This document shows, piece after piece, positions 42,536-55,581 of a stretch of DNA of 64,000 nt (position 1 is its first letter; every line of letters starts with the position of its first letter). Under the pieces are notes generated by a model that made no database searches, was not told the DNA's origin, and saw only the letters and a program-made list of their open reading frames with translations. Position numbers and translations under genes: made by a program. This DNA comes from Massilia arenae (GTDB taxonomy: Bacteria > Pseudomonadota > Gammaproteobacteria > Burkholderiales > Burkholderiaceae_D), in the NCBI RefSeq assembly GCF_008014745.1, contig NZ_VPFD01000010.1:1-64000 (forward strand), read 5' to 3'.

Positions 42536-43576
42536 TCATGCGGCCTGTTCGCGCCATGCCCCCGGATTCATGCCGCTCCATTCGCGAAACGCGTGGGTGA
42601 ACGCGCTCTGCTCCTGGAAGCCGAGCAGGAAGGCGATATCGACCAGGCCCAGCTCGCGCCGGCGCAGGTAGTCCTGGGCCAGGCCGTAGCGCACCGCATC
42701 GAGCACCTGCTGGAAGCTCGAACCGGCGTCGGCCAGCTTGCGTTGCAGGGTGCGGGTCGACAGCCCGAGCTCGGCCGCCACCGGCGCCAGCCGCGCCTCG
42801 CCGCTGTTCAGGCGCGGCAGCAGCGCGGCCCGCACCCGCGCCACGATCGGGTCGACCCGGGCGGCGCGTTCTTCGAGCAGCCGTTCGGCGTGATGCAGCA
42901 GGAGCGGGTACAGGCTGGTATCGGCGTTCGGTACCGGCATCGCCAGCAGGGCGGCATCGACGACGGCGCAGTTCAGTGGCGCACCGAACTCCGGCGCGAT
43001 GCCCAGCACACGCAGGTATTCGGCGCTGCCGTGGCCCGGGTCGGCATGCCGGACCCGCAGCGCCAGCGGCATCAGGGGCCGCCCGGCCAGCCAGCCGCCG
43101 AACACGCGGATGCCCGCGAACACGCTTTCCACCAGGTGCCGGGTGGCGTCGGGGTAGTGGCTGATCCATTCGTAGTGCGCCTGGGCGCCGTGGAGCGCCA
43201 GGCCGCTGCGGCCCAGGTCGTGGGCCAGCGATTCGTAGCGCTGGGTCAGCTCCAGCGCATGGCCGAAGCTGCTGCAGGCCAGGAGCAGCATGCCGTAGGC
43301 GCTATAGGTGGCCGGACGCGCCTTCTCGCCCACGTGCAGGCCGAAGAATGGGTCGTTCGCCAGGCGCGCGCCGGCTTCGAGCAGGCCGATGTAGCGTCGT
43401 GCGGACAGTCTCTCGGGCAGCGGATCCAGGGCATCGGGCGCCATGCCGGCGGCCTCGGCCAATGCAGGAAGGGTAAGGCCGCGCTCGAGGGCGGTTTCCA
43501 GTAGAGGCTGCAGGTAGGAACCGGTCACGCGGGCGTCCATGGCGGGCGGTGGCGTGATTGAGCAAGGCTGTGTCAT
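42536..43576 (-). CDS. AraC-family transcriptional regulator (PF12625-type N-terminus)
   Basis: A 346-residue regulator. The N-terminal domain of about 200 residues (YLQPLLETALERGLTLPALAEAAGM, later YGMLLLACSSFGHALELTQRYESL) is the arabinose-binding-like domain of the OruR/ArgR-type AraC proteins. The C-terminal double helix-turn-helix has LAPVAAELGLSTRTLQRKLADAGSSF and LVDIAFLLGFQEQSAFTHAFREWSGMNPGAWR. It is divergent from the flavoenzyme-GlpD-kinase operon, and three direct repeats lie in the 111-bp gap, so it probably controls that operon. No ribosome site is seen before the ATG. Confidence 0.9.
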   Translation of the reverse strand: MTQPCSITPPPAMDARVTGSYLQPLLETALERGLTLPALAEAAGMAPDALDPLPERLSARRYIGLLEAGARLANDPFFGLHVGEKARPATYSAYGMLLLACSSFGHALELTQRYESLAHDLGRSGLALHGAQAHYEWISHYPDATRHLVESVFAGIRVFGGWLAGRPLMPLALRVRHADPGHGSAEYLRVLGIAPEFGAPLNCAVVDAALLAMPVPNADTSLYPLLLHHAERLLEERAARVDPIVARVRAALLPRLNSGEARLAPVAAELGLSTRTLQRKLADAGSSFQQVLDAVRYGLAQDYLRRRELGLVDIAFLLGFQEQSAFTHAFREWSGMNPGAWREQAA

Positions 43577-43611
43577 GAAAGCGCAATACGATTGGCGGGA
43601 GCGTCTTTAAC

Positions 43612-43643
43612 GTGTTACCTGAGGTGATACCTGTAGTGATACC
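43612..43643. promoter_or_regulatory. three GTGWTACC direct repeats at 12-bp spacing
   Basis: GTGTTACC (43612-43619), GTGATACC (43624-43631) and GTGATACC (43636-43643) repeat with an exact 12-bp period in the gap between the divergent AraC regulator and the flavoenzyme operon, ending 44 nt before the latter's ATG. They are the likely binding array of the AraC protein. Confidence 0.6.
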
Positions 43644-43687
43644 GGGCTGGCAAAAAGAACAACTTGCAGTATAACGGAAAGTCATTG

Positions 43688-45295
43688 ATGCGGCGTTGGA
43701 ACGGTTGGGGTGACGAGTCGATTACGGTGCAGCTGGAAGGGGAGGCCAGAGCCTTCCTCGGCGCACGGCTGGGCCGGGGCACGGCTCCGCAGGACGCGAC
43801 CTTCGAACAAGCCTGCGCCGGCCTGCCGCCGGGCCGCCTGCCGCCCCATCCCCTGATCGATACCAGCAGCGCCACGCGCGCGCGCCACGCCCTCGGCCAG
43901 AGCCTGCCGGACTGGCTGCGCCTGCGCCACGGCCGCCTGGGCAATGTGCCCGACGGCGTGGCCTTTCCCGAATCCGGCGCCCAGGTGCGCGAGCTCTTGG
44001 GCTTCGCCGCCCGCCACGATGCGGTGGTGATCCCCTACGGCGGCGGCACCAGCGTGGCCGGCCACCTCGACGTGGGCCGCAGCTCCAACGGCGGCCTGCG
44101 CCCGAGCCTCTCCATCGACATGGGCCGCATGCGCGCCATGATCTCGCTCGACCGCGAGGCGCAGCTGGCCTGCTTCGGCGCCGGCGTGTCCGGCGCCGAT
44201 CTCGAAGCCCAGCTGCGCGCCCATGGCTATACCCTGGGCCATTATCCGCAGTCGTTCGAATACTCCACGCTCGGGGGCTGGATCGCCACTCGCTCGTCGG
44301 GACAGCAGTCGCTGCGCTACGGCCGCATCGAGCAGATGTTCGCGGGCGGGCGCATCGAGACGCCGTCCGGCACCCTCGACATCCCGACCTTCCCAGCCTC
44401 GAGCAGCGGCATCGACCTGCGCGAGATGGTGCTCGGTTCCGAAGGCCGCATAGGCGTGCTGACCCATGCCGCGGTGCGCATCAACCGCCTGCCCGAGCAC
44501 GAAGCCTTCCACGCGCTGTTCTTCCCCGACTGGGAACACGCGCTGCAGGCGGCGCGGACGCTGGCCCAGGCGCGCCTGGGATTGTCGATGCTGCGCCTGT
44601 CGAACGCCGGCGAGACGGTCACCATGCTGGCGCTGGCCGGCCACGCCCGCCAGGTTGCGCTGCTGGAGCGCTACCTGGGCTGGCGCGGTTGCGGCCAGTC
44701 CAAATGCATGCTGCTGGTCGGCGCCAGCGGCGCCAGGGGCCAGGCGCGCGAGGCGCTGCGCGCGGCGGTGGCCCTGGCGCGGCGCCAGCGCGGCGTGCAC
44801 GTCGGACGCGCGCTGGGCGAACGCTGGCGCCGCAACCGCTTCCGCAGCGTCTACCTGCGCAATGCGGCCTGGGAGCAGGGCTATGCGATCGACACGGTCG
44901 AGACGGCGCTCGACTGGCCGCACGTGACGTCGGCGGTGACGGCGATCGAGCAGGCCGCGGCGGCCGCGCTGGAAGCCTTCGGCGAACGCGTGCACGCCTA
45001 TACCCACCTGTCGCACCTGTATCCGCAGGGCGCCAGCGTGTATTCGACCTTCGTCTACCGGCTGGCGGGCGACTACCAGGCCGACCTGGCGCGCTGGCGC
45101 CAGCTCAAGGACCGGGTCTCGAGCGCGATCGTCGGCTGCGGCGGCACCATTAGCCACCAGCATGGCGTGGGCGTCGACCACGCGCCATGGCTGGCGGCCG
45201 AGAAGGGCGAGCTGGGACTCGGCGCCATGGGCGCGCTGTTCCGCCACTTCGATCCCGAGTGCCGGATGAACCCGGGCAAGCTGGTGACGCCATGA
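43688..45295 (+). CDS. FAD-binding oxidase, alkyl-dihydroxyacetonephosphate synthase-like
   Basis: A 535-residue VAO/PCMH-type flavoprotein resembling alkyl-DHAP synthase, which swaps the acyl group of acyl-DHAP for a fatty alcohol to form an ether lipid precursor. The FAD pyrophosphate motif YGGGTSVAGH is at 117-126. HYPQSFEYSTLGGWIATRSSGQQSLRYG is the family's second FAD region. The C-terminal active-site block reads GASVYSTFVYRLAGDYQ then GGTISHQHGVGVDHAPWL. The usual His-His-His tract is His-Gln-His. GGAAAG is 6 nt before the ATG at 43688. The stop overlaps the next gene as ATGA. The pathway role is inferred; a 2-hydroxyacid oxidase role is the main alternative. Confidence 0.8.
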   Translation: MRRWNGWGDESITVQLEGEARAFLGARLGRGTAPQDATFEQACAGLPPGRLPPHPLIDTSSATRARHALGQSLPDWLRLRHGRLGNVPDGVAFPESGAQVRELLGFAARHDAVVIPYGGGTSVAGHLDVGRSSNGGLRPSLSIDMGRMRAMISLDREAQLACFGAGVSGADLEAQLRAHGYTLGHYPQSFEYSTLGGWIATRSSGQQSLRYGRIEQMFAGGRIETPSGTLDIPTFPASSSGIDLREMVLGSEGRIGVLTHAAVRINRLPEHEAFHALFFPDWEHALQAARTLAQARLGLSMLRLSNAGETVTMLALAGHARQVALLERYLGWRGCGQSKCMLLVGASGARGQAREALRAAVALARRQRGVHVGRALGERWRRNRFRSVYLRNAAWEQGYAIDTVETALDWPHVTSAVTAIEQAAAAALEAFGERVHAYTHLSHLYPQGASVYSTFVYRLAGDYQADLARWRQLKDRVSSAIVGCGGTISHQHGVGVDHAPWLAAEKGELGLGAMGALFRHFDPECRMNPGKLVTP

Positions 45296-46881
45296 ATCAA
45301 ACTAACGTCTTTCCTCCAGGGCGCGACTGGGACCTGCTGGTGATCGGCGGCGGCATCACCGGCGCCGGCATCCTGCTCGAAGCCGCGCGGCGCGGCCTCA
45401 AGACCTTGCTGGTCGAGCAGAAGGACTTCGCCTGGGGCACCTCGAGCCGTTCGTCGAAGCTGGTGCACGGCGGCCTGCGCTACCTTGCGTCCGGAAACCT
45501 GCGCCTGACGCGCGACGCCGTGCGCGAGCGCGAATCGCTGTTGCGCGCCGCGCCCGGCCTGGTCGAGCCGCAGGGCTTTGCCTTCGCCGACCATGGCACC
45601 GACGTCAAGCGGCGGCTGGGCTTTCTCGCCATGCTGCGCGTGTACGACATGCTGGCCGGCCGCCGCGAGCCGCACTGGGAGCGCCCGGAATCGTTCCGCA
45701 TGCTGGCGCCGAATATCGGAGAAGCCAACCTTGCCGGCGGCATCCGCTACACCGACGCCAAGACCGACGACGCGCGCCTGGTGCTGCGTGTCATCGACGA
45801 GGCGCGCGCCCATGGCGCGGTCGCCTGCAACTACGTGACCGTGCAGGCGCTGGTGCGCGACGGCGGCAAGGTGCACGGCGCCATGCTGCGCGACGAACGC
45901 AGCAAGGCCGAGACGGCGGTGCGCGCGCGGGTGGTGATCAACGCCACCGGCGCCTGGTCCGATTTGCTCGGCGGCGCGGCAGGCGGAGAGGTAGCCTGCA
46001 ATAAGCCCGATCGCGCGCCGCGCCTGCGGCCGCTGCGCGGCAGCCACCTGGTGCTGCCGGCCTGGCGCCTGCCGCTGGCGCAGGCGGTCAGCCTGCTGCA
46101 CCCGGCCGACAGCCGCCCCGTATTCGCCTTCCCGTGGGAGGGCGTGACCCTGGTCGGCACCACCGATGTCGACCACGAGGAAGGGGTGAACACCGAGGCG
46201 CGCATCACGCGTCATGAATTCGACTACCTGATGGCTGCCCTGCACGCCCAGTTCCCGCAGCTCGGGCTGGGCGACCAGGACGTCGTCGCCACCTTCGCCG
46301 GCGTGCGGCCGGTGATCGACGGCGGCCAGCATGGCGCGCCGTCGTCCGAGAAGCGCGACCACTTCGTGTGGTCGGAGCCGGGCCTGGTCTCGGTGGCCGG
46401 CGGCAAGCTGACCACCTTCCGTTCGATCGCCCTCGACGTGCTGCGCCACGTGTCGCAGCAGCTGCCCGGCTGGCAGCTGCGTCCCGAGCGCGGGCCGGTG
46501 TTCGCGCGGGTCTCGGTGCCGGCACGCCACGACCTGCCGTCCGGTGTGCTGCGCCGGCTGGCCGGCCGCTATGGCGCCCAGGCCAAGCCGCTGCTGCTCG
46601 CGGCGCGCCAGGGCGAGCTGGAATGCATCCCGGGCACGCAGACGCTGTGGGCCGAGCTGCGCTGGGCCGCACGTTGCGAGCAGGTCTTCCAGCTGGACGA
46701 CCTGCTGCTGCGCCGCACCCGGCTCGGCATCCAGCTGCCTAACGGCGGCATCGACCAGATGGCGCGCATCCGCGCCATGTGCCAGCCGGAGCTCGGCTGG
46801 GACGATGCGCACTGGGAATCGCAGGAGCGGCGCTACCTGGCCGAGTGGCGCAAGCAGTACGGCGTTCCGCCTGCCGCCTGA
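45292..46881 (+). CDS. glycerol-3-phosphate dehydrogenase-like FAD oxidoreductase (GlpD type)
   Basis: A 529-residue GlpD/GlpA-family flavoprotein. The N-terminal FAD motif DLLVIGGGITGAGILLEAARRG is followed by SSRSSKLVHGGLRYL, a GlpD hallmark, then VINATGAWSD, FPWEGVTLVGTTDVDHE and SVAGGKLTTFRSIA. The C-terminal helical domain (about 390-525) is typical of GlpD. It would oxidise glycerol-3-phosphate or a related polyol phosphate to a ketone at the membrane face. The ATG overlaps the previous stop, and the kinase gene follows 2 nt later. The housekeeping glpD is probably elsewhere; this copy may act on a modified substrate. Confidence 0.88.
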   Translation: MNQTNVFPPGRDWDLLVIGGGITGAGILLEAARRGLKTLLVEQKDFAWGTSSRSSKLVHGGLRYLASGNLRLTRDAVRERESLLRAAPGLVEPQGFAFADHGTDVKRRLGFLAMLRVYDMLAGRREPHWERPESFRMLAPNIGEANLAGGIRYTDAKTDDARLVLRVIDEARAHGAVACNYVTVQALVRDGGKVHGAMLRDERSKAETAVRARVVINATGAWSDLLGGAAGGEVACNKPDRAPRLRPLRGSHLVLPAWRLPLAQAVSLLHPADSRPVFAFPWEGVTLVGTTDVDHEEGVNTEARITRHEFDYLMAALHAQFPQLGLGDQDVVATFAGVRPVIDGGQHGAPSSEKRDHFVWSEPGLVSVAGGKLTTFRSIALDVLRHVSQQLPGWQLRPERGPVFARVSVPARHDLPSGVLRRLAGRYGAQAKPLLLAARQGELECIPGTQTLWAELRWAARCEQVFQLDDLLLRRTRLGIQLPNGGIDQMARIRAMCQPELGWDDAHWESQERRYLAEWRKQYGVPPAA

Positions 46882-46883
46882 CC

Positions 46884-48446
46884 GTGCAGGCGCCGCTGCT
46901 GCTGGCCATCGATAACGGCACGCAAAGCGTGCGCGCCCTGCTGTTCGACTTGCGCGGCGAACTGGTGGCGAAGTCGCAGGTGGCGCTGGACGACTACCGA
47001 TCGCCGCAGCCGGGCTGGCACGAGCACGACGTCGACGCCTACTGGCAGGCGCTGTGCCAGGCCTGCCGCCAGCTATGGACACAGCCCGGCGCCGAGCGCG
47101 CCCGCCTGGCCGGCGTCGCCGTCACGGCCCAGCGCGGCACCGTGGTCAACCTGGACCGCGAAGGCCGCCCGCTGCGGCCCGCGATCACCTGGCTCGACCA
47201 GCGCCGCACCGAAGACGTCCCGCCGATCGGACCGCTGTGGCGCGCGGCCTTTCGCGTGGCGGGCGTGGCCGGCACCATGCGGCACCTGGCCGGCGAAGCC
47301 GAGATCAACTGGATCCGCGCCCACCAGCCCGAGGTCTGGGATGCTACCGACAAGTTCCTGCTGCTGTCGGGCTACCTGAACTGGCGCCTTGGCGGCCGCT
47401 TCGTCGATTCTAGCGGCTCGCAGGTGGCCTATATTCCTTTCGACTACCGGCGCCGGCGCTGGGCCGGACCGCGCGCCTGGCAGTGGCAGGCACTCGCCGT
47501 GAAGCCTTCCATGTTGCCCGAGCTGGCGCCGCCCGGTGCGCGCCTTGGCAGCGTCACCGCGCAGGCGGCGTTCGATACGGGCATCCCGGAGGGCTTGCCG
47601 CTGCTGGCGGCGGCCGCCGACAAGGCCTGCGAAGTGATCGGCGCCGGCTGCTGCGCGCCGCACGTGGCGTGCCTCAGCTACGGCACCACGGCCACCATCA
47701 ACATCACCTCGCAGCGTTACATCGAGGCGGTGCGTTTCGTGCCGCCGTATCCGAGCGCGCTGCCGGATGCGTACAGCATCGAGCAGCAGGTGTATCGCGG
47801 CTACTGGATGGTCAACTGGTTCAAGGAGCAGTTCGGCCACCACGAACAATCGCGCGCACTGCTGGAAGACGTGGCGCCTGAACGGCTGTTCGACGAGCTG
47901 GCCAGCAGCGTGCCGCCGGGATCGATGGGGCTGATGCTGCAACCCTACTGGACGCCGGGCATCCGCCTGCCGGGGCGCGAAGCCAAGGGGGCGATCGTGG
48001 GATTCGGCGACGTCCACACCCGCGCCCACGTGTACCGCGCAATCCTGGAAGGGCTGGCGTATGCGCTGCGCGAAGGCAAGGAGCGGATCGAGCGGCGGGG
48101 CGGCGTGCGCATCACCGAGCTGCGAGTGTCGGGCGGCGGCTCACAGAGCGACGCGGCGATGCAGCTCACGGCCGATATCTTCGGCCTGCCGACGGCGCGG
48201 CCGCATGTGTATGAGACGTCCGGGCTGGGGGCGGCGATCGATGCCGCCGTGGGATTGGGCTTGTATCCGGATTTTGCCAGCGCGATTGACGGCATGACGC
48301 GGGTAGGGCGGGTGTTCGAGCCAGTTCCAGGCAACCGGGTGGTCTACGAGCGCCTGTACAAGGACGTGTATTTGCGGATGTACCGACGCTTGCAGCCGAT
48401 GTACCGCGACATCGCGCGCATTACGGGTTATCCGCGCGAAGCGTGA
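46884..48446 (+). CDS. FGGY-family carbohydrate kinase
   Basis: A 520-residue sugar/polyol kinase. The N-terminal phosphate motif LLLAIDNGTQSVRALLFD and WHEHDVDAYWQAL are present, then VTAQRGTVVNLDREGRPLRPAITWLDQRR. ATP-binding blocks are CLSYGTTATINI, LRVSGGGSQSDAAMQLTADIFGLP and TSGLGAAIDAAVGLGLY. It starts with GTG at 46884, 2 nt after the GlpD-like stop. The substrate is unknown: glycerol kinase itself is shorter in sequence pattern, and similar proteins lie in equivalent operons. Likely a kinase for a glycerol-like or ether-linked polyol feeding the two oxidoreductases. Confidence 0.85.
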   Translation: MQAPLLLAIDNGTQSVRALLFDLRGELVAKSQVALDDYRSPQPGWHEHDVDAYWQALCQACRQLWTQPGAERARLAGVAVTAQRGTVVNLDREGRPLRPAITWLDQRRTEDVPPIGPLWRAAFRVAGVAGTMRHLAGEAEINWIRAHQPEVWDATDKFLLLSGYLNWRLGGRFVDSSGSQVAYIPFDYRRRRWAGPRAWQWQALAVKPSMLPELAPPGARLGSVTAQAAFDTGIPEGLPLLAAAADKACEVIGAGCCAPHVACLSYGTTATINITSQRYIEAVRFVPPYPSALPDAYSIEQQVYRGYWMVNWFKEQFGHHEQSRALLEDVAPERLFDELASSVPPGSMGLMLQPYWTPGIRLPGREAKGAIVGFGDVHTRAHVYRAILEGLAYALREGKERIERRGGVRITELRVSGGGSQSDAAMQLTADIFGLPTARPHVYETSGLGAAIDAAVGLGLYPDFASAIDGMTRVGRVFEPVPGNRVVYERLYKDVYLRMYRRLQPMYRDIARITGYPREA

Positions 48447-48467
48447 TCCGATACAGAAAGCGCTTTT

Positions 48468-48510
48468 TTGACATGGCCACAGAATTACACTGAAGTCTCT
48501 TTCCACTTCA
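48468..48510 (+). promoter_or_regulatory. possible promoter and inverted repeat ahead of the 52-residue gene
   Basis: A perfect -35 TTGACA (48468-48473) lies 17 bp before a poor -10 (TGAAGT, 48491-48496). That hexamer is itself the left half of an inverted repeat TGAAGT-N8-ACTTCA (48491-48510), so repression or activation at this site is plausible. The preceding AAAGCGCTTTTTT could terminate the kinase operon weakly. Confidence 0.35.
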
Positions 48511-48523
48511 TCGGGAGTACATC

Positions 48524-48682
48524 ATGAACCGCAAAGAGGCTGATCACCACGCAAACCAGCGCAACCCCGAGCATATTGCTCGCAAGTTGGCCAACGATAA
48601 CCGATCGAGGCAACTCAATCCCAAGGACCCGGTCTATCAACTGGGGCGTAGTAACCTGCAGCCGAAGCCGAGGACGAAGTAG
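48524..48682 (+). CDS. 52-residue basic small protein
   Basis: A short gene with a strong ribosome site (GGGAG at 48513-48517) and ATG at 48524, ending TAG at 48682. The product is 52 residues, hydrophilic and basic, starting MNRKEADHHANQRNPEHIA and containing NDNRSRQLNPKDPVYQLGRS. The NDNRSRQLNP stretch recalls a widespread group of small uncharacterised proteobacterial proteins with D-N-R-S-N-Q-x-N-P. No membrane segment or signal. It lies 77 nt after the kinase operon with its own promoter-like site. Function unknown. Confidence 0.6.
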   Translation: MNRKEADHHANQRNPEHIARKLANDNRSRQLNPKDPVYQLGRSNLQPKPRTK

Positions 48683-48750
48683 TTCGGTGACGGGAGTGCG
48701 GAGAAGGAATGGCCGGGAGGGTTTGGCGGCCAGACGTAAAGGAATAGGTG

Positions 48751-50667
48751 ATGGCAAGAAAGAAGGCGAGTGACGGGGTGCAGGCCACCGTCGAACGGCT
48801 GACGGGAGAAACCCCGTGTCCACCGTATCTGCGGGAAACGCTCAACAAGTACTGGCGACATGAGCGCCTGATTGGCAGTCAAGGGCGGCGTCGAGCAGCT
48901 GGCGAAGACGCAACCTTGAATCAGCTCAAGGACGTGCACCTCGATAATCTGGTGCACAACCTGCTGGACCTCGATGCACTGTTCGTCGGCGACACGGGCA
49001 AGGTCATTGACGTCATCACTGGTCGCATGGAAACGCATGTGCTGGACGGCGAGCTTGTCAGCATCGAAGGCGTCATGCAAAGGCGCATGGAGATCTATCG
49101 TCACTGGCTCGATCGCATGGCTTCGGTGCGCGCCACACTGGCCCAGCCAGGTCTCGACCTGCGTGTGGATCGGCTGGAAGACCAGCTATCTGTCGGCAGG
49201 CGGGAGGACGCGCGCGCCATTCCTTCCTTTGCATTACATGCGCTGCAAGTGCAGGAGGCCAGCGAGGCAAGGCAGGGCGGGGGCGAGCCGAGTGCTGCCG
49301 ACTTCGTTGAACGCGCCGACGCCTACCTCGCACTCGGAGACTTGGCCAGTGCGGACAAAAACGCCTGCCTCGCCATCGGGCAGGACGCTTCTTGCGCCCG
49401 GGGCTGGTTCATCCGCGTGGTGGTCGCATTGCGACGCCGTCAGGAAGCAATGCGGGCCCATCGAAGGAAACGCATAGAAGCGCAGGAGTGCGCGGAACCG
49501 GCGTCGGCACACGAGCGATGGGCCATGGACCAGGCGGACGACGCGGCCGGTGACGCCCAGGAGCAGCATCGGATCTTGCTGGCGATCTTGCCTCAGGCAA
49601 TCGTGCACTGGCCGTGCACGGTAAAGCGACATGATCACCCGGCGCTATGGAAACAGGTGCGTGGCTTGTTCGTTGACAGCATGTTCGCGATCGCAGCGCA
49701 CGATACGCAGCGCTTCGGCTCCCGGCAACAATGGGCGCGCGTGAGTGGACTGGAGCCTGAGTGGGCGCTGGAGCACGCGAAACATCCCTACGCTCACAGT
49801 AGCGGCTTGACGGCAGGTTCACCATTTACGAGGGAAGAAACACTGGGCATTCGCTATCTGGTATCTGCCTATGATGCGCAACCCCGGGATTTCTTCGAAT
49901 TGTTCGACGAAGAGAGGATTGGCCTGGATTTTCGCCTGTATCACTTGCGCCATGTCTTGGCCATGGAAGGCGGCGAGGAGCACTGGGAACGGCTGCAGGG
50001 CGCGGTTGCGGAGAGTCCACCGGCGTGGCGGGTTGGTCAGCTGATGAGAGATTCGGCGGTGGCGCGGCTCTGGCAGGCGCATTACTGCGGCCGCAGCGGC
50101 GCCACGGCGCTCATGGAGGCCGGCGCGCAATGGCTGCGAGAGATGGAGGACATCGACAAGGGACGGCACCGGTTCCAGTTGCTTGGACAATACGCGTATC
50201 TATATCACCATCAACTCGCGCGGGGTGAATTCGGCGCATGTGGATTGGTGGCCGCCAAAGCGATCGCGCTGTTCGATGGCGCGTCAGCGCTGATCGGGTG
50301 GTTCGGGTTTGAAACGCATCCCTACGACGATTCGATCGGCATGCCGATCGACCGCTGCCGCTATTGGGAGTATCTTGCCGCAATCGCTGCCGTTGAACAG
50401 CGCCGAAACGGCGCGACGCTTTCCGTTCAGGCCGACGCCATACTGGCCACAGAGGATCATTGGCGGCTCCTCTTTTCAGACGAGGATGCTTGCTTCTGGC
50501 GCGCTTCGGAGGAATACGAAGAAGGCGGCGGCACCGATTGGCTGGAGCCGCCCTATGGAATCGATCTTCGGCGCACCGACAGTTGGACCAGCGCAGCAGT
50601 ACCCCACGACCGGTTGGCGGCGATGCCTCCTCAACCGGTATCGCTGCCGCCGGATTGCCGGTCATGA
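48751..50667 (+). CDS. large hypothetical protein, possible TPR-like region
   Basis: A 638-residue soluble protein without signal peptide, membrane helix or recognised catalytic motif. About 40% is predicted helical by eye; a region near 185-230 (FVERADAYLALGDLASADKNACLAIGQDASCARGWFIRVV) looks like one or two tetratricopeptide-like repeats. The second half has aromatic- and acid-rich helices (FDEERIGLDFRLYHLRHVL, HRFQLLGQYAYLYHHQLARGEFGACGLVAAKAI). AAAGGA lies 7 nt before ATG 48751; a GTG one codon upstream is in frame. Base composition is somewhat lower in GC than its neighbours, hinting at transfer. Function cannot be assigned. Confidence 0.7.
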   Translation: MARKKASDGVQATVERLTGETPCPPYLRETLNKYWRHERLIGSQGRRRAAGEDATLNQLKDVHLDNLVHNLLDLDALFVGDTGKVIDVITGRMETHVLDGELVSIEGVMQRRMEIYRHWLDRMASVRATLAQPGLDLRVDRLEDQLSVGRREDARAIPSFALHALQVQEASEARQGGGEPSAADFVERADAYLALGDLASADKNACLAIGQDASCARGWFIRVVVALRRRQEAMRAHRRKRIEAQECAEPASAHERWAMDQADDAAGDAQEQHRILLAILPQAIVHWPCTVKRHDHPALWKQVRGLFVDSMFAIAAHDTQRFGSRQQWARVSGLEPEWALEHAKHPYAHSSGLTAGSPFTREETLGIRYLVSAYDAQPRDFFELFDEERIGLDFRLYHLRHVLAMEGGEEHWERLQGAVAESPPAWRVGQLMRDSAVARLWQAHYCGRSGATALMEAGAQWLREMEDIDKGRHRFQLLGQYAYLYHHQLARGEFGACGLVAAKAIALFDGASALIGWFGFETHPYDDSIGMPIDRCRYWEYLAAIAAVEQRRNGATLSVQADAILATEDHWRLLFSDEDACFWRASEEYEEGGGTDWLEPPYGIDLRRTDSWTSAAVPHDRLAAMPPQPVSLPPDCRS

Positions 50668-50730
50668 ATGCCCGCTGGGCCGTAGGCGACATCGTGCGCA
50701 GTACAGGTGATCGGTGTGACGCTTGATACG

Positions 50731-51135
50731 TTAGGAGATATGCTCGGCGTCGGGCGGAGGAACCACCCAAGCGTGCATGCGATGCTCATACACCGACACC
50801 GTCGGCGCCGGAAAGCTGGCCTCGGCGAACGCCCCGATCGGGATGACGACGGATTCCTCTGCGCCTTCGGTCTGGTAATAGACCGTCGCACCGCAGACCG
50901 GGCAGAAGTGGAAATTCGCGCGCGAACCTTCGTCTCCTACCAGCACGAAACTGGTCGAGGTGCCGGATACCGCCACTTGCTCGCGCCGGAACCTGGCCTG
51001 CGCCGCGAACACGCTGCCACTACGGCGCTGACAATTCAGGCAGTGGCAGATCGAGACGCGGAGTGGTTCACCGCTGACTTGCGCCCTCAACGCGCCGCAA
51101 CTGCAAGACGCCAAACGTGTGCGTGGCGTCTCCAT
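50731..51135 (-). CDS. GFA-family zinc protein
   Basis: A 134-residue member of the GFA family (glutathione-dependent formaldehyde-activating enzyme-like, Mss4-like fold). Zinc ligands are complete: C11 and C13 (CSCG), C30, C32 and C35 (CHCLNCQ), and C78 and C81 (FCPVCG). It starts with METPRTRLASCSCGALRAQVSGEP. Most family members have no proven formaldehyde activity, so only zinc binding is safe to infer. It lies on the minus strand one base after the stop of the broken exonuclease gene. Confidence 0.85.
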   Translation of the reverse strand: METPRTRLASCSCGALRAQVSGEPLRVSICHCLNCQRRSGSVFAAQARFRREQVAVSGTSTSFVLVGDEGSRANFHFCPVCGATVYYQTEGAEESVVIPIGAFAEASFPAPTVSVYEHRMHAWVVPPPDAEHIS

Positions 51136-51136
51136 C

Positions 51137-52058
51137 TCAATCGTCGTCCTGCGGAATATCGAGCCACATCACATAGAAACCGTCGTTTGGCGAATCGCTG
51201 ATCCTTCCGCCGCGGATCTTGGCGGCACATTCAAAATGCTTGAACTCAGCCAGATCCCCCTCGACGACCGCTCGTCGGAAATCCTGGGCCATGCGCGGAG
51301 CCAGATTTCCCACCACTTCTTCGTTCAGCAAGACTTTTACGGCATTCGACATCGCTTCGATACGCAATTGCACTTGAATGTCGAGAACCGTCCCTTTTTG
51401 TGTTCGAGGGCCACATACGAGTTCGAAGGCCTCCTGATGGCGTCGCGTCCCGAGAACCTCTATGCGAAACTGCCGCGGGCCTGTAATGGTCGGGATGACG
51501 GCGGGAGCTCCGGTCTTGATCGCTTTGTTCACGCCCTTGTCTGGTCTTGCTGGAACAGCGGCATGGCGGGACAGGAAATACACTTCCAGCGCCAGGAGCG
51601 TGTCGTTCAGCGCCCGATGTGCGGTGCCAGTGTCGAGTTGGAGATGAGAGGCGAGATAAACCAGTTTATGATTCGGCAGATCGGGCCATGCTGCCCTTGC
51701 GCTGGCCAGCGCGCAATGTCCGATGTTGCTGAGCGGCCGACGGCCATGCCGCTCGATGGCGGCATTGAGAAATTTCGCATCAAAATTGATGTTGAATGCC
51801 ACCAGATCATGATCGCCCACGAAGTCGATGAACTCGTCCAAGACCTCTTGCATTGGCCGGCCGCCGGCCCGCAACATCTCATCGGTGATGCCAGTCAAAT
51901 TCGATCAGCTGTGTCATATGAGGATGCGATTGCGCGCCGGGAATATATTTGACAGCGGCGACCTCAATGATGCGGTCCTTCTTAGAGCATAGGCCAGTGG
52001 TTTCAAAATCGAAGAAGACGATCGGTTCACCGGATTGAGGGTAGTGGGAGTCGCGCAT
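51137..52058 (-). pseudogene. DnaQ-like 3'-5' exonuclease, frameshifted
   Basis: Two reading frames together make one DEDDh exonuclease. The first, from ATG 52058 to a TGA at 51879 (59 residues), has the Exo I motif FFDFETTGL and IIEVAAVKYIPG. The second, open from 51898 to 51137 (253 residues), continues with TGITDEMLRAGG, Exo II HDLVAFNINFDAKFL and Exo III HRALNDTLLALEVY, plus a C-terminal region of about 130 residues like the tail of WGR/BRCT-like accessory domains, not identified. The frames meet at about 51898-51905, where the family normally reads a few more residues before LTGIT. A small deletion is the simplest explanation; sequencing error or programmed frameshifting are alternatives. 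Confidence 0.75.
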
Positions 52059-52118
52059 GGAATAGTGATCGATATCGGGATGTCGGCGTCCAACTGACGC
52101 GAAGAAGATCGATTTATG

Positions 52119-53477
52119 TCAGTGTGCCATCCCGCCCCGCATTTGCTCCCACGCCGCTCCCGCCTGCGCCACCACCACCTGGTTACGCCCGCGCGCCTTG
52201 GCCTCGTACATCGCGCGGTCGGCCGAGATGAAGAACGTGCGGATATCGTCGAACAGGGTCGGCACGATGCACGCTACGCCCACGCTGACCGTCACCACCC
52301 CGGACCCCTCGGAGCGCGGATTCGGAATGGCCAGGCGCTCGATGTGGGCGCGGATCGACTCGCCCAGACGCGCCGCCGCACTGGAGCCGGTATCGGCCAG
52401 CAGCACCACGAATTCCTCGCCGCCGTAGCGCGCGGCCAGGTCGGTCGGGCGCATCGCATGCGATTGCAGCGCTTCGGCGATGGCCTGCAGGCAGGCGTCG
52501 CCGGCGGCGTGGCCCAGGCTGTCGTTGTAGCCCTTGAAATGGTCGACGTCGAGCACAATCAGCGACAACGGCTGGCCGCTGCGGATGGCGCGCTGCCATT
52601 CCTTGTCCAGGAAGGCATCGAAGTGGCGGCGGTTGGCGATGCGCGTCAGCGGGTCGACCAGGGCGGCGCGCTGCAGCGCGGTCTCGGACTGCTTGTGGTG
52701 GGTGATGTCGTGCAGCAGGGCGACGAACAGCGCCTCGCCGCCGGCCATCGGCGACAGGCTCAGGTCCATCGCGCGCATGGTGCCGTCCGACTGGCGCACC
52801 AGCACCTCGCGCGTGCCGCGGCAGCGCGCGGTCGCCTCGGCATCGAGCGGCTGGGCGAAGTAGTCGGCGTAGTCGTAGGCGGCGGGCGGCTCGACCAGGT
52901 CGGCCAGCAGCTCGCCCTCCAGCACTTCCTTGGGCTGGGACAGGAAGCGCTCGCAGGCCGGGTTAGCGTATACCACGCGGCCTTCGCAGTCGACCAGCAT
53001 CAGGCCCTCGTCCATGCCGTCGACGATCAGCTGCAGGCGCTCGGCCTGCTGCTTCTGGCTTTCGCTGCTGCTGCGCAGCCGCAGCTGGGCGCGCACGCGG
53101 GCACACACTTCGGCCATGCGCACCGGCTTGGCGATGTAGTCGGCGGCGCCGGTGTCGAAGCCGGCGACGATGTCCTCGGTCTCGCCGCAGGCGCTGACGA
53201 AGATGACGGGGATGTGGGCGGTATCGGGCTGGCGTTTCAGGCGGCGGCAGATTTCCAGGCCGTCGAGGTCGGGCAGGATGACATCGAGCAGGATCAGGTC
53301 GGGCTGGACGCGGGTGGCGATGTCGAGCGCGCGCTTGCCGGAACTGGCGACGAAGGTCTGGTAGCCCTGCTGGCGCATCATGTCCTGCAGCAGCCCGAGG
53401 CTGTCGGGAGCGTCGTCGACGATCAGAATCGCGGATTGGCGCGCCGGTGCGGCGAGCGCTAGGGCAGGATGCATCAT
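52119..53477 (-). CDS. response regulator-PAS-GGDEF diguanylate cyclase
   Basis: A 452-residue soluble protein. The receiver domain (about 15-132) has phosphoacceptor D65 in LILLDVILPDLDGLE and the Lys in YIAKPVR. A PAS domain (about 145-265) follows, then a GGDEF domain with intact GGEEF at 352-356 and DPLTRIANRRHFDAFL. The inhibitory RxxD upstream of GGEEF is not evident. Phosphorylation should raise cyclic di-GMP synthesis. No cognate kinase is adjacent. Monocistronic by position. Confidence 0.9.
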   Translation of the reverse strand: MMHPALALAAPARQSAILIVDDAPDSLGLLQDMMRQQGYQTFVASSGKRALDIATRVQPDLILLDVILPDLDGLEICRRLKRQPDTAHIPVIFVSACGETEDIVAGFDTGAADYIAKPVRMAEVCARVRAQLRLRSSSESQKQQAERLQLIVDGMDEGLMLVDCEGRVVYANPACERFLSQPKEVLEGELLADLVEPPAAYDYADYFAQPLDAEATARCRGTREVLVRQSDGTMRAMDLSLSPMAGGEALFVALLHDITHHKQSETALQRAALVDPLTRIANRRHFDAFLDKEWQRAIRSGQPLSLIVLDVDHFKGYNDSLGHAAGDACLQAIAEALQSHAMRPTDLAARYGGEEFVVLLADTGSSAAARLGESIRAHIERLAIPNPRSEGSGVVTVSVGVACIVPTLFDDIRTFFISADRAMYEAKARGRNQVVVAQAGAAWEQMRGGMAH

Positions 53478-53688: not shown

Positions 53689-54882
53689 TTACAGCATGCC
53701 GGCGATCAGCTTGCCGAGGACCGCGATGCCTTCGCGGATGCGCTCAGGCGGCACGGTCACGAAGGACAGGCGCAGCGTGTTAGTGGCAGGATTGTTGGCG
53801 TAGAACGGCGCGCCCGGCACGAAGGCCACGCGCGCGGCCAGCGACTGCTCCAGCAGCTTCATGGCGTCGACCTGTTGCGGCAGGGTGACCCAGATGAACA
53901 TGCCGCCTTCGGGCTTGGTCCAGCTCACGCCGGCCGGGAAGTGTTCCTGCATCGCGTCCAGCATCACCTGGCACTGGTCGCCGTACAGCTGGCGGATGGT
54001 CGGGATGTGCTGGTCCAGGAAGCCGTCCTTGACGACTTCGTGCACCACCATCTGGGTCAGCTGGGCGGTGTGCAGGTCGGCTGCCTGCTTGGCCAGCTCG
54101 AGGCGGCGCACCAGCGGCAGCGGGGCGCAGACATAGCCCAGGCGGATGCCCGGGGTCAGCACCTTCGAGAACGAACCCATGTAGATGACGCCGTCCGGGT
54201 TCATGGTCACCATCTTCGGGCTCGGCGCGCCTTTGTAGCTCAGCGAGCCGTAGGGATCGTCCTCGATCAGCGGCACGCCCAGGCGGGCGCAGGTTTCCAC
54301 CAGTTCCTGGCGGCGCTCGACCGACAGCGAGCGGCCGGTCGGGTTCTGGAAGTTCGGCAGCGCGTACAGCATGCGCGCGCCTTGCGCGATGCCTTCCAGC
54401 GACGACGGCACCAGGCCGTGTTCGTCGGTCTCGACCGACTTGAATTCTGGACGGTAGACCGAAAACGCCTGCAGCGCGCCCAGGTAGCTCGGGGTCTCGA
54501 CCAGCACGCGGCTGCCTTCGTCGATCAGCACCTTGCCCAGCAGGTCGAGCGCTTGCTGCGAACCCGAGGTCATGAGGATCTGTTCCGGCAGGATCGTCGA
54601 GCCTTCCGTCGACAGCGAACCGGCAATCCACTCACGCAGCGGCGCGTAGCCATCGGTCGGGCCATATTGCAGCGCGACTTTGTCGTTCTCGCTCAGGACC
54701 TTGTCGTAAGCGGCTTTCATGCGCTCGACCGGGAAGGTGGCTGGCGATGGCAGGCCACCGGCGAACGAGATGATCTCCGGACGCTGGGTGATCTTCAGGA
54801 TCTCGCGGATGAACGAGCTTTGCAGCTGCTGGGCGCGTTCCGAGAACTGCCACTGGATGGGATTGGGGTTTTCGATTTTCAT
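53689..54882 (-). CDS. PLP-dependent aminotransferase, 2-aminoadipate/valine-pyruvate type (class I)
   Basis: A 397-residue cytoplasmic aminotransferase of the LysN/MocR-like fold without a DNA-binding domain. ISFAGGLPSPATFPVERM, ALQYGPTDGYAPLREWIA, TSGSQQALDLLGKVLID, PNFQNPTGRSL and the PLP lysine in GSFSKVLTPGIRLGY are all as in this group. The exact donor is not fixed by sequence; LysN, alanine-glyoxylate or aromatic/branched substrates are possible. The ATG at 54882 aligns with the family start MKIENPNPIQW. A strong terminator follows. Confidence 0.88.
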   Translation of the reverse strand: MKIENPNPIQWQFSERAQQLQSSFIREILKITQRPEIISFAGGLPSPATFPVERMKAAYDKVLSENDKVALQYGPTDGYAPLREWIAGSLSTEGSTILPEQILMTSGSQQALDLLGKVLIDEGSRVLVETPSYLGALQAFSVYRPEFKSVETDEHGLVPSSLEGIAQGARMLYALPNFQNPTGRSLSVERRQELVETCARLGVPLIEDDPYGSLSYKGAPSPKMVTMNPDGVIYMGSFSKVLTPGIRLGYVCAPLPLVRRLELAKQAADLHTAQLTQMVVHEVVKDGFLDQHIPTIRQLYGDQCQVMLDAMQEHFPAGVSWTKPEGGMFIWVTLPQQVDAMKLLEQSLAARVAFVPGAPFYANNPATNTLRLSFVTVPPERIREGIAVLGKLIAGML

Positions 54883-55044
54883 ACTCGTCTCACAGGAAGG
54901 TGCACGGTCGTGCCGGGCCATTATATAAAACACGCCGCGTTGGCGGCTCACGTCGGCGAATGGAGCCGGGTCAGCCGCGCGAGGTACAACAGTAATTGAT
55001 TTACCGACAAATTAATGCCGGTTGTAGACACGTTATCGACGGCT

Positions 55045-55506
55045 TTATGCCACTTCCACGATCATTTCGATCTCGACGCAGGTGCCGCGCGGCAGCGACG
55101 CAACGCCGAAGGCCGAGCGTGCGTGCTTGCCGGCGTCGCCGAACACTTCGCCGATCAGTTCCGAGGCGCCATTGGTGACCAGGTGTTGTTCGTTGTAGTC
55201 CGGGGTCGACGCGACCAGGCTCATCAGCTTGACGATGCGCTTGACGCGGTTCAGGTCGCCGCCCACGGCTTCCTGCAGGGTGCCGATCAGGTCGATCGCG
55301 ACCGAGCGCGCGGCGGCCTGGCCATCCGCCGTGGTCTTGTCGCGGCCCAGGATGCCGGCGTTGATGCTGCCGTCTTTGTTCTTGGCGATATGGCCCGAGA
55401 TGAACACCAGGTTGCCGGTCTGCACGTACATGACGTAGGCCGCGGCCGGGGTGGCTGGCGCTTCCAGGGTGATGTTCAGTTCCTTGAGTTTGTCGTAGAC
55501 GGACAT
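55045..55506 (-). CDS. RidA-family protein (YjgF endoribonuclease-like, long form)
   Basis: A 153-residue Rid-superfamily protein of the longer PF14588 type. RidA proteins hydrolyse reactive enamine/imine intermediates of PLP enzymes. Family segments are VMYVQTGNLVFISGHIAKNKDG, AIDLIGTLQEAVGGDLNRVKRIVKLMSLV and HARSAFGVASLPRGTCVEIEMIVEV, with the key Arg in ARSAFGV retained. ATG 55506 is chosen (GGAAAA 6 nt upstream); ATG 55518 is in frame. It lies beside the aminotransferase, consistent with detoxifying its by-products. Confidence 0.88.
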   Translation of the reverse strand: MSVYDKLKELNITLEAPATPAAAYVMYVQTGNLVFISGHIAKNKDGSINAGILGRDKTTADGQAAARSVAIDLIGTLQEAVGGDLNRVKRIVKLMSLVASTPDYNEQHLVTNGASELIGEVFGDAGKHARSAFGVASLPRGTCVEIEMIVEVA

Positions 55507-55581
55507 GGTGTTTTCCATAAGTTGCGTGAATGAAGGCGGTATTGTACGTTGAGCCAGCGTCATGCACATCGGGTGCGATCG

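Follow-up and report, generated by a model that had tools for sequence, protein, structure and literature searches.

What use would a bacterium have for a relative of the ether-lipid enzyme alkyl-DHAP synthase (AGPS; DHAP, dihydroxyacetone phosphate) whose gene is packed together with those of a GlpD-like dehydrogenase and an FGGY-family kinase? The question is raised by a locus of Massilia arenae (genome size 5.97 Mb) within the stretch of 64,000 nucleotides analysed here and referred to as the window (contig NZ_VPFD01000010.1, positions 1 to 64,000). Gene 1 encodes the AGPS-like flavoenzyme (43688–45295, +) and is overlapped over 4 nt by gene 2, encoding the GlpD-like FAD dehydrogenase (45292–46881, +), while gene 3, encoding the FGGY kinase, begins with GTG after a gap of 2 nt (46884–48446, +). 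An AraC-type regulator gene (42536–43576, −) lies divergently, 111 nt from the ATG of gene 1 at 43688. A preliminary description of the sequence had recognised three tightly packed genes next to a divergent AraC regulator, and both observations are confirmed. Its statement that no such pathway is established holds in that no function has been assigned, but the operon had already been described in Pseudomonas aeruginosa (PMC8151288); the operon itself is not new, the ether-breaking reading appears to be. We propose that the genes form a catabolic cassette under AraC control that acts on glycerol mono-ethers, for instance 1-O-alkylglycerols, a reading to which we assign a probability of about 0.45.

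The flavoenzyme, composed of FAD_binding_4 and FAD-oxidase_C domains, is kin to AGPS and not to lactate or glycolate oxidases. Its best PDB matches by phmmer are Dictyostelium AGPS (260 bits) and guinea-pig AGPS (181 bits), compared with 66 bits for the best D-lactate dehydrogenase, and it scores 103 bits against the glcD model, whose cut-off is 568. When its AlphaFold2 model (mean pLDDT 83.6) was searched with Foldseek, hits 1 to 37 were all AGPS chains (E 4.5e-41 to 6.4e-35), followed by D-lactate dehydrogenases (1.4e-24). A 55-row tree gathers the 32 rows of the cassette into a single clade (100/100), split from two GlcD-type proteins of the same genome (100/99), for which the best NCBIfam model is glycolate oxidase GlcD at scores under the cut-off. 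The two PDB AGPS rows fall outside the cassette clade together with a Streptomyces row (97/86), the deep order of the tree being weakly supported (89/49) with several long branches. The likeness to AGPS claimed in the preliminary description is borne out by PDB matches and Foldseek alike, and a glycolate or lactate oxidase identity, which it had named as refuting its reading, is rejected by sequence, tree and fold. R352, R447 and Y508 of Dictyostelium AGPS, reported as important for catalysis (PMC3509576), correspond to R303, R391 and Y452 of the window enzyme, as mapped via the PDB-match alignment with chain numbering 3 behind, and do not vary among the 32 cassette proteins aligned. The replacement of the tri-His tract by His-Gln-His, also noted earlier, is found within the motif SHQHGVG, in which Gln takes the place of the middle His in all but one of 80 aligned cassette proteins (the window and 79 loci, L078 having been removed by a position and length filter).

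A survey of gene neighbours, as envisaged in the preliminary description, shows that both companions travel with the flavoenzyme. It covers 80 named loci, the best 80 of at least 573 confirmed matches to two peptide patterns and biased towards the window's kin; counts are from tblastn, because gene maps from open reading frame picking and homology took antisense frames in some high-GC loci. The GlpD-like gene is the most constant partner, directly following the flavoenzyme in 77 loci, and an FGGY kinase is next in line in 72, a recurrence which means that the order is not due to chance. The eight loci lacking the kinase either reach a contig end (L091, L117, L121 and L140) or have no such gene at this place (L112, L115, L116 and L139). 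A divergent AraC-type gene lies within 500 bp in 44 of the 80. Nothing else is constant: besides the four core genes, clustering places no gene cluster in more than 21 of 81 stretches, and ten neighbour-cluster representatives compared with Pfam comprised one YegS-type kinase (near the cassette in nine of the 80 loci, all Pseudomonas), one without a match and eight with no clear link (Pirin, T2SSC, peptidase C93, CheW/response regulator, MOSC, ABC, MoeA and amidohydrolase). Among the best 80 of at least 573 matches, the closest named flavoenzymes belong to Massilia species, with up to 79% identity. At E ≤ 1e-40 a relative was detected in 20 of 398 genomes drawn from across the phylum; in 16 of them (the Massilia arenae genome included) it reaches at least 47% identity, whereas the other four have distant relatives only, at 32–34%. 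The same threshold gives 53 of 195 genomes of the family, a few through distant relatives only; within the genus, 41 of 62 congeners carry the flavoenzyme at E ≤ 1e-100. The cassette order recurs in Pseudomonadota and in metagenome-assembled genomes (MAGs) labelled as other phyla, although these labels may be wrong.

The two companions belong to the families expected of a GlpD-type dehydrogenase and a polyol kinase (DAO and DAO_C; FGGY_N and FGGY_C), and to that extent the preliminary description stands, but neither reaches the cut-off of its canonical model. The GlpD-like protein scores 284 bits against NF008899 (cut-off 360). Its residues R63, Y64, R339, K372, T374 and T375, which lie in three motifs alignable with E. 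coli GlpD (GGLRY, GVRP and GGKLTTFR), are identical in 75 of 75 aligned copies, six loci having been left out by length and position filters or because their gene was missing or truncated. The window kinase scores 157.6 bits against the GlpK model (cut-off 590), and its glycerol-kinase signature is incomplete. Of the five glycerol-kinase specificity residues named in PMC3245297, Arg83 and Asp245 are retained and Tyr135 aligns to a gap; at the position of Phe270 all 73 cassette kinases have Thr by the alignment with 2zf5, whereas that with 2d4w has a gap at this position. Glu84, a ligand of a glycerol hydroxyl (PMC3245297, PMC2680290), is replaced throughout the 73, by Gly in 61, Ala in 10 and Ser in two; eight loci were left out of this set on the same grounds as above. 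A GlpK over the cut-off (693–715 bits) is encoded elsewhere in 17 of 17 congeners tested, in seven of which the cassette kinase is also present and scores 154–170 bits, and a canonical GlpD exceeds its cut-off in 14 of the 17 (exceptions G555, G623 and G641). Judged on sequence, the cassette kinase is not a GlpK; a fold search was non-discriminating, numerous FGGY kinases matching at similar E-values. Of the idea that the pair is a plain GlpK/GlpD duplicate, the kinase half is rejected by the scores, the Glu84 change and the GlpK elsewhere, and the dehydrogenase half is still conceivable.

The substrate, the direction of reaction, the identity of the nucleophile and the role of a glycerol ether in control are inferred along the following lines. 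The FGGY kinase would phosphorylate the free end of a substituted glycerol, converting alkylglycerol into alkyl-glycerol 3-phosphate (alkyl-G3P), and the GlpD-like flavoenzyme would oxidise the middle hydroxyl to give alkyl-DHAP, with electrons probably passing to the quinone pool as they do from GlpD. The AGPS-like enzyme would then form an AGPS-type flavin–DHAP adduct, from which the alcohol leaves and to which water or a fatty acid is admitted, so that AGPS chemistry directed towards cleavage would release DHAP (or acyl-DHAP) and a fatty alcohol. AGPS is known to hydrolyse acyl-DHAP slowly. An exchange of the nucleophile is chemically plausible because, in the ping-pong mechanism of AGPS, the leaving group departs from the adduct before the second substrate binds (PMC3509576). 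Read in this catabolic sense, every gene of the cassette has a use.

By analogy, the company kept by the cassette in other bacteria suggests a lipid theme. Fifteen plasmid loci with AGPS-like genes were examined, the PLSDB gene tables being incomplete, and in four a GlpD-like gene lies beside the flavoenzyme: Streptomyces fungicidicus and Tsukamurella, both annotated with a TetR gene and with a YegS/diacylglycerol-kinase-type gene in the kinase slot; Microbacterium, with GlpK in the kinase slot; and Nonomuraea, in whose unannotated record the frame was confirmed as GlpD-like. Flavoenzyme and GlpD-like genes stand behind a FadR_C regulator in two Anaerolineales MAG loci (L139, L140); in an Anaerolineaceae MAG locus (L112) the cassette faces glpF, dhaK, dhaL and a GlpK-like gene; and in Halioglobus (L132) AMP-binding acyl-CoA-ligase-type and alpha/beta-hydrolase genes adjoin it. 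Among the genes that the regulator GliR activates in P. aeruginosa is the phospholipase C gene PA3464 (PMC8151288), whose product could supply alkyl-acylglycerols there. The Massilia arenae genome has two PF04185 phospholipase C hits, for neither of which a link to the operon was shown.

The preliminary description had left it open whether the operon makes or breaks ether-linked or otherwise modified glycerol; the theme is retained and we narrow it to breakage, because the partners expected for synthesis are missing and what is conserved is a kinase together with an oxidising enzyme of GlpD type. The opposite direction, ether-lipid biosynthesis from glycerol through G3P, DHAP and acyl-DHAP (by an unlinked acyltransferase) to alkyl-DHAP, as in Kotecka et al., is favoured by the AGPS kinship and conserved catalytic residues, by the published P. 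aeruginosa proposal, in which the operon is drawn as a biosynthetic route (PMC8151288), and by a PF01553/DAGAT acyltransferase gene directly upstream of the cassette in L106. The known synthesis route, however, needs acyl-DHAP, a fatty alcohol and later a reductase rather than an oxidase, and the cassette provides for none of these three; FAR-like and DHAP-acyltransferase genes are likewise absent from that of the window. DHAP and G3P come from central metabolism, which would make a dedicated kinase and oxidase superfluous, the kinase no longer has the full GlpK signature, and the flavoenzyme clade is separate from the two eukaryotic AGPS rows. The FAR model PF07993 hits the Massilia arenae genome weakly (at most 32 bits), and as it also hits 14 of 14 control genomes it provides no clean test. 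With the L106 acyltransferase and that of a Streptomyces plasmid as tblastn queries (1e-8), no further homologue was found in the 80 loci, a search that is not a family scan. We consider biosynthesis quite improbable.

Together with the published biosynthetic drawing and the L106 acyltransferase, several results weigh against the catabolic reading, and the one that speaks most strongly against a strictly linear, dedicated pathway comes from the congeners. All 62 were scored at E ≤ 1e-100 by three gene searches combined by hand, with split or contig-end-cut hits (e.g. G639, G645, G006, G023, G648) counted as present. All three genes occur in 38 and none in 11; the kinase alone is missing in three (G004, G628, G649), the GlpD-like gene alone is kept in four (G555, G623, G640, G641) and the kinase alone in six (G003, G016, G022, G609, G647, G650). 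The 13 partial loci (L164–L176) adjoin the same aminotransferase and RidA-like genes as the window cassette, and the genes were therefore lost in place. The lone copies are open frames with NG86 dN/dS of 0.20–0.42 for kinases and 0.07–0.22 for GlpD-like genes, so that the survivors in 13 of the 62 congeners are under purifying selection, which is unexpected for a strictly linear, dedicated pathway. In three of the four genomes that keep the GlpD-like gene alone (G555, G623, G641) it is the only GlpD-model hit (E ≤ 1e-20), two of these being near-identical kin (97% in the GlpD-like protein) and draft gaps being possible, while the equally close relative G640 carries both a canonical GlpD and the lone GlpD-like gene. 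The GlpD-like enzyme may accordingly act on plain G3P, and the lone copy may substitute for GlpD. His-Gln-His is not absolute, with three His in L100 and in actinobacterial relatives; L115 and L116 carry the flavoenzyme with neither GlpD-like gene nor kinase; and 10 of the 15 plasmid loci have neither a GlpD-like nor an FGGY/GlpK gene among the genes listed or frames viewed. Alcohol dehydrogenases, aldehyde dehydrogenases and transporters are all missing from the cassette. Growth tests in P. aeruginosa covered rich medium, citrate, glycerol, osmotic stress and phenotype plates, and deletion mutants are described as without growth defect on citrate, glycerol and nine phenotype plates (PMC8151288).

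The in-place partial cassettes with constrained survivors, and the lone GlpD-like genes in genomes with no canonical GlpD hit, would be accommodated if the operon served accessory glycerol or glycerolipid metabolism, its kinase and GlpD-like enzyme being paralogues specialised for different tasks (such as salvage of monoacylglycerol and oxidation of G3P, respectively) and the AGPS-like enzyme acting apart. Set against this, 38 of the 41 flavoenzyme-bearing congeners have all three genes, and the order recurs in Pseudomonadota and beyond in the MAGs mentioned above; we regard the proposal as unlikely. An equally unlikely variant retains the three steps but replaces the lipid by another imported 1-substituted glycerol, such as a small glycerol ether or glycoside. 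Most FGGY kinases use polar polyols, nine sugar or polyol substrates being listed for them (PMC3245297), and on a Paracoccus plasmid (L154, 4941–11251) a distant AGPS-like gene is accompanied by genes for an FGGY kinase, a Ugp-type ABC transporter and a LacI regulator, with no GlpD among the listed genes, which hints at a soluble glycerol ether or glycoside as substrate. The YegS-type lipid kinase, FadR_C, acyl-CoA-ligase-type and hydrolase contexts argue otherwise, as does the lack of a constant transporter among the non-core clusters. Further afield on plasmids, a Streptomyces locus (NBC_01450, one of the ten with neither companion; L147, 3154–6419) has a short-chain dehydrogenase, a PF01553 acyltransferase and AGPS in a row, the AGPS grouping with eukaryotic AGPS, and is a candidate actinobacterial ether-lipid biosynthesis cluster on sequence grounds.

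Five known systems stand closest to the operon. In P. aeruginosa, PA3027 (gliR) and PA3026-PA3025-PA3024 present the same four genes and divergent layout as the window, followed by the YegS-type gene PA3023 (PMC8151288); in the Pseudomonas loci sampled, among which PAO1 is not included, the flavoenzyme is 54–56% and the regulator 31–35% identical to those of the window. Eukaryotic AGPS/ADPS shares the fold and three catalytic residues of the window enzyme, which differs in its His-Gln-His, its own clade and its gene company. Myxococcus xanthus MXAN_1676-1674 is likewise a three-gene operon with an AGPS homologue, but its partners are a FAR/GNPAT-like fusion and an NAD-dependent epimerase/dehydratase rather than a GlpD-like enzyme and an FGGY kinase (PMC9131029). 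The glpK-glpD pair has the same chemistry of kinase followed by FAD dehydrogenase, whereas the window pair is under both cut-offs and canonical copies exist elsewhere in the same genome. Alkylglycerol monooxygenase (AGMO), a tetrahydrobiopterin-dependent membrane enzyme (PMC3617469), likewise breaks alkylglycerol ethers and is given as the sole enzyme known to do so (PMC3617469, PMC7911779, PMC9192799); the proposed cassette route would need neither tetrahydrobiopterin nor oxygen for cleavage. We put forward, tentatively and as something that may well prove wrong, the broader claim that bacteria cleave glycerol ethers with no monooxygenase by reversing AGPS chemistry through a kinase, a GlpD-type oxidase and a His-Gln-His AGPS-like lyase or hydrolase, a route that would extend from Pseudomonadota to MAGs whose labels place them in other phyla and that would have related three-His versions, with the kinase exchanged, on actinobacterial plasmids.

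If the ether-breaking reading is correct, it would reveal a new means by which bacteria split a bond that is hard to break, provide a gene-level handle on bacterial ether-lipid recycling, give a function to a published orphan Pseudomonas operon and advise caution in taking bacterial AGPS homologues as markers of ether-lipid synthesis. Among the titles and abstracts listed from the open-licence PMC literature, only PMC8151288 treats the operon, and none presents it as an ether-breakdown route. The 13 partial loci represent a natural set of partial mutants. In three of these (L167, L168 and L170, from G555, G623 and G641) GlpK is present and the GlpD-like gene is kept beside its AraC-type regulator.

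That the AraC-type gene is the operon's regulator is supported by analogy with GliR. Its product has Arabinose_bd and HTH_18 domains and scores 202 bits against the NCBIfam GliR model, under the cut-off of 570. The divergent intergenic region (43577–43687, 111 nt), within which the left end (43612) of the interval first described falls, contains short stretches that many loci share in an alignment of 20 from Oxalobacteraceae. Neither GliR motif of P. aeruginosa, A or B, is recognisable in it, the best matches having 5 and 4 mismatches. GCAATAC by the regulator start and, upstream of gene 1, AGTATA are each found in many of these loci and may form an operator/promoter pair unlike the GliR motifs. 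The open frame of gene 1 extends from a TTG at 43664 (43664–45295, +); the ATG at 43688 is preferred, where the conserved MRRWNGWGDE begins.

A separate plasmid clade of AGPS-like genes comprises L061 (7953–12308), L153 (5953–10308), L062, L065 and L152. In Moraxella osloensis and Acinetobacter towneri these lie with gamma-carbonic-anhydrase-like and acyl-CoA synthetase genes near Tn3 transposases, and in Roseovarius and Polaromonas CaiB-type CoA-transferases are nearby. The clade resembles a mobile breakdown module, and we would guess at alkoxy acids such as polyethylene glycol carboxylates as its substrates. In the window, the aminotransferase (53689–54951) and RidA-like (55045–55569) genes that flank the cassette are preceded by a GGDEF gene (52119–53477). 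The stretch between kinase and GGDEF gene (48447–52118) has a lower GC content of about 0.60–0.62 and is a possible insertion; a GGDEF gene also sits near the cassette in the relatives L164 and L165.

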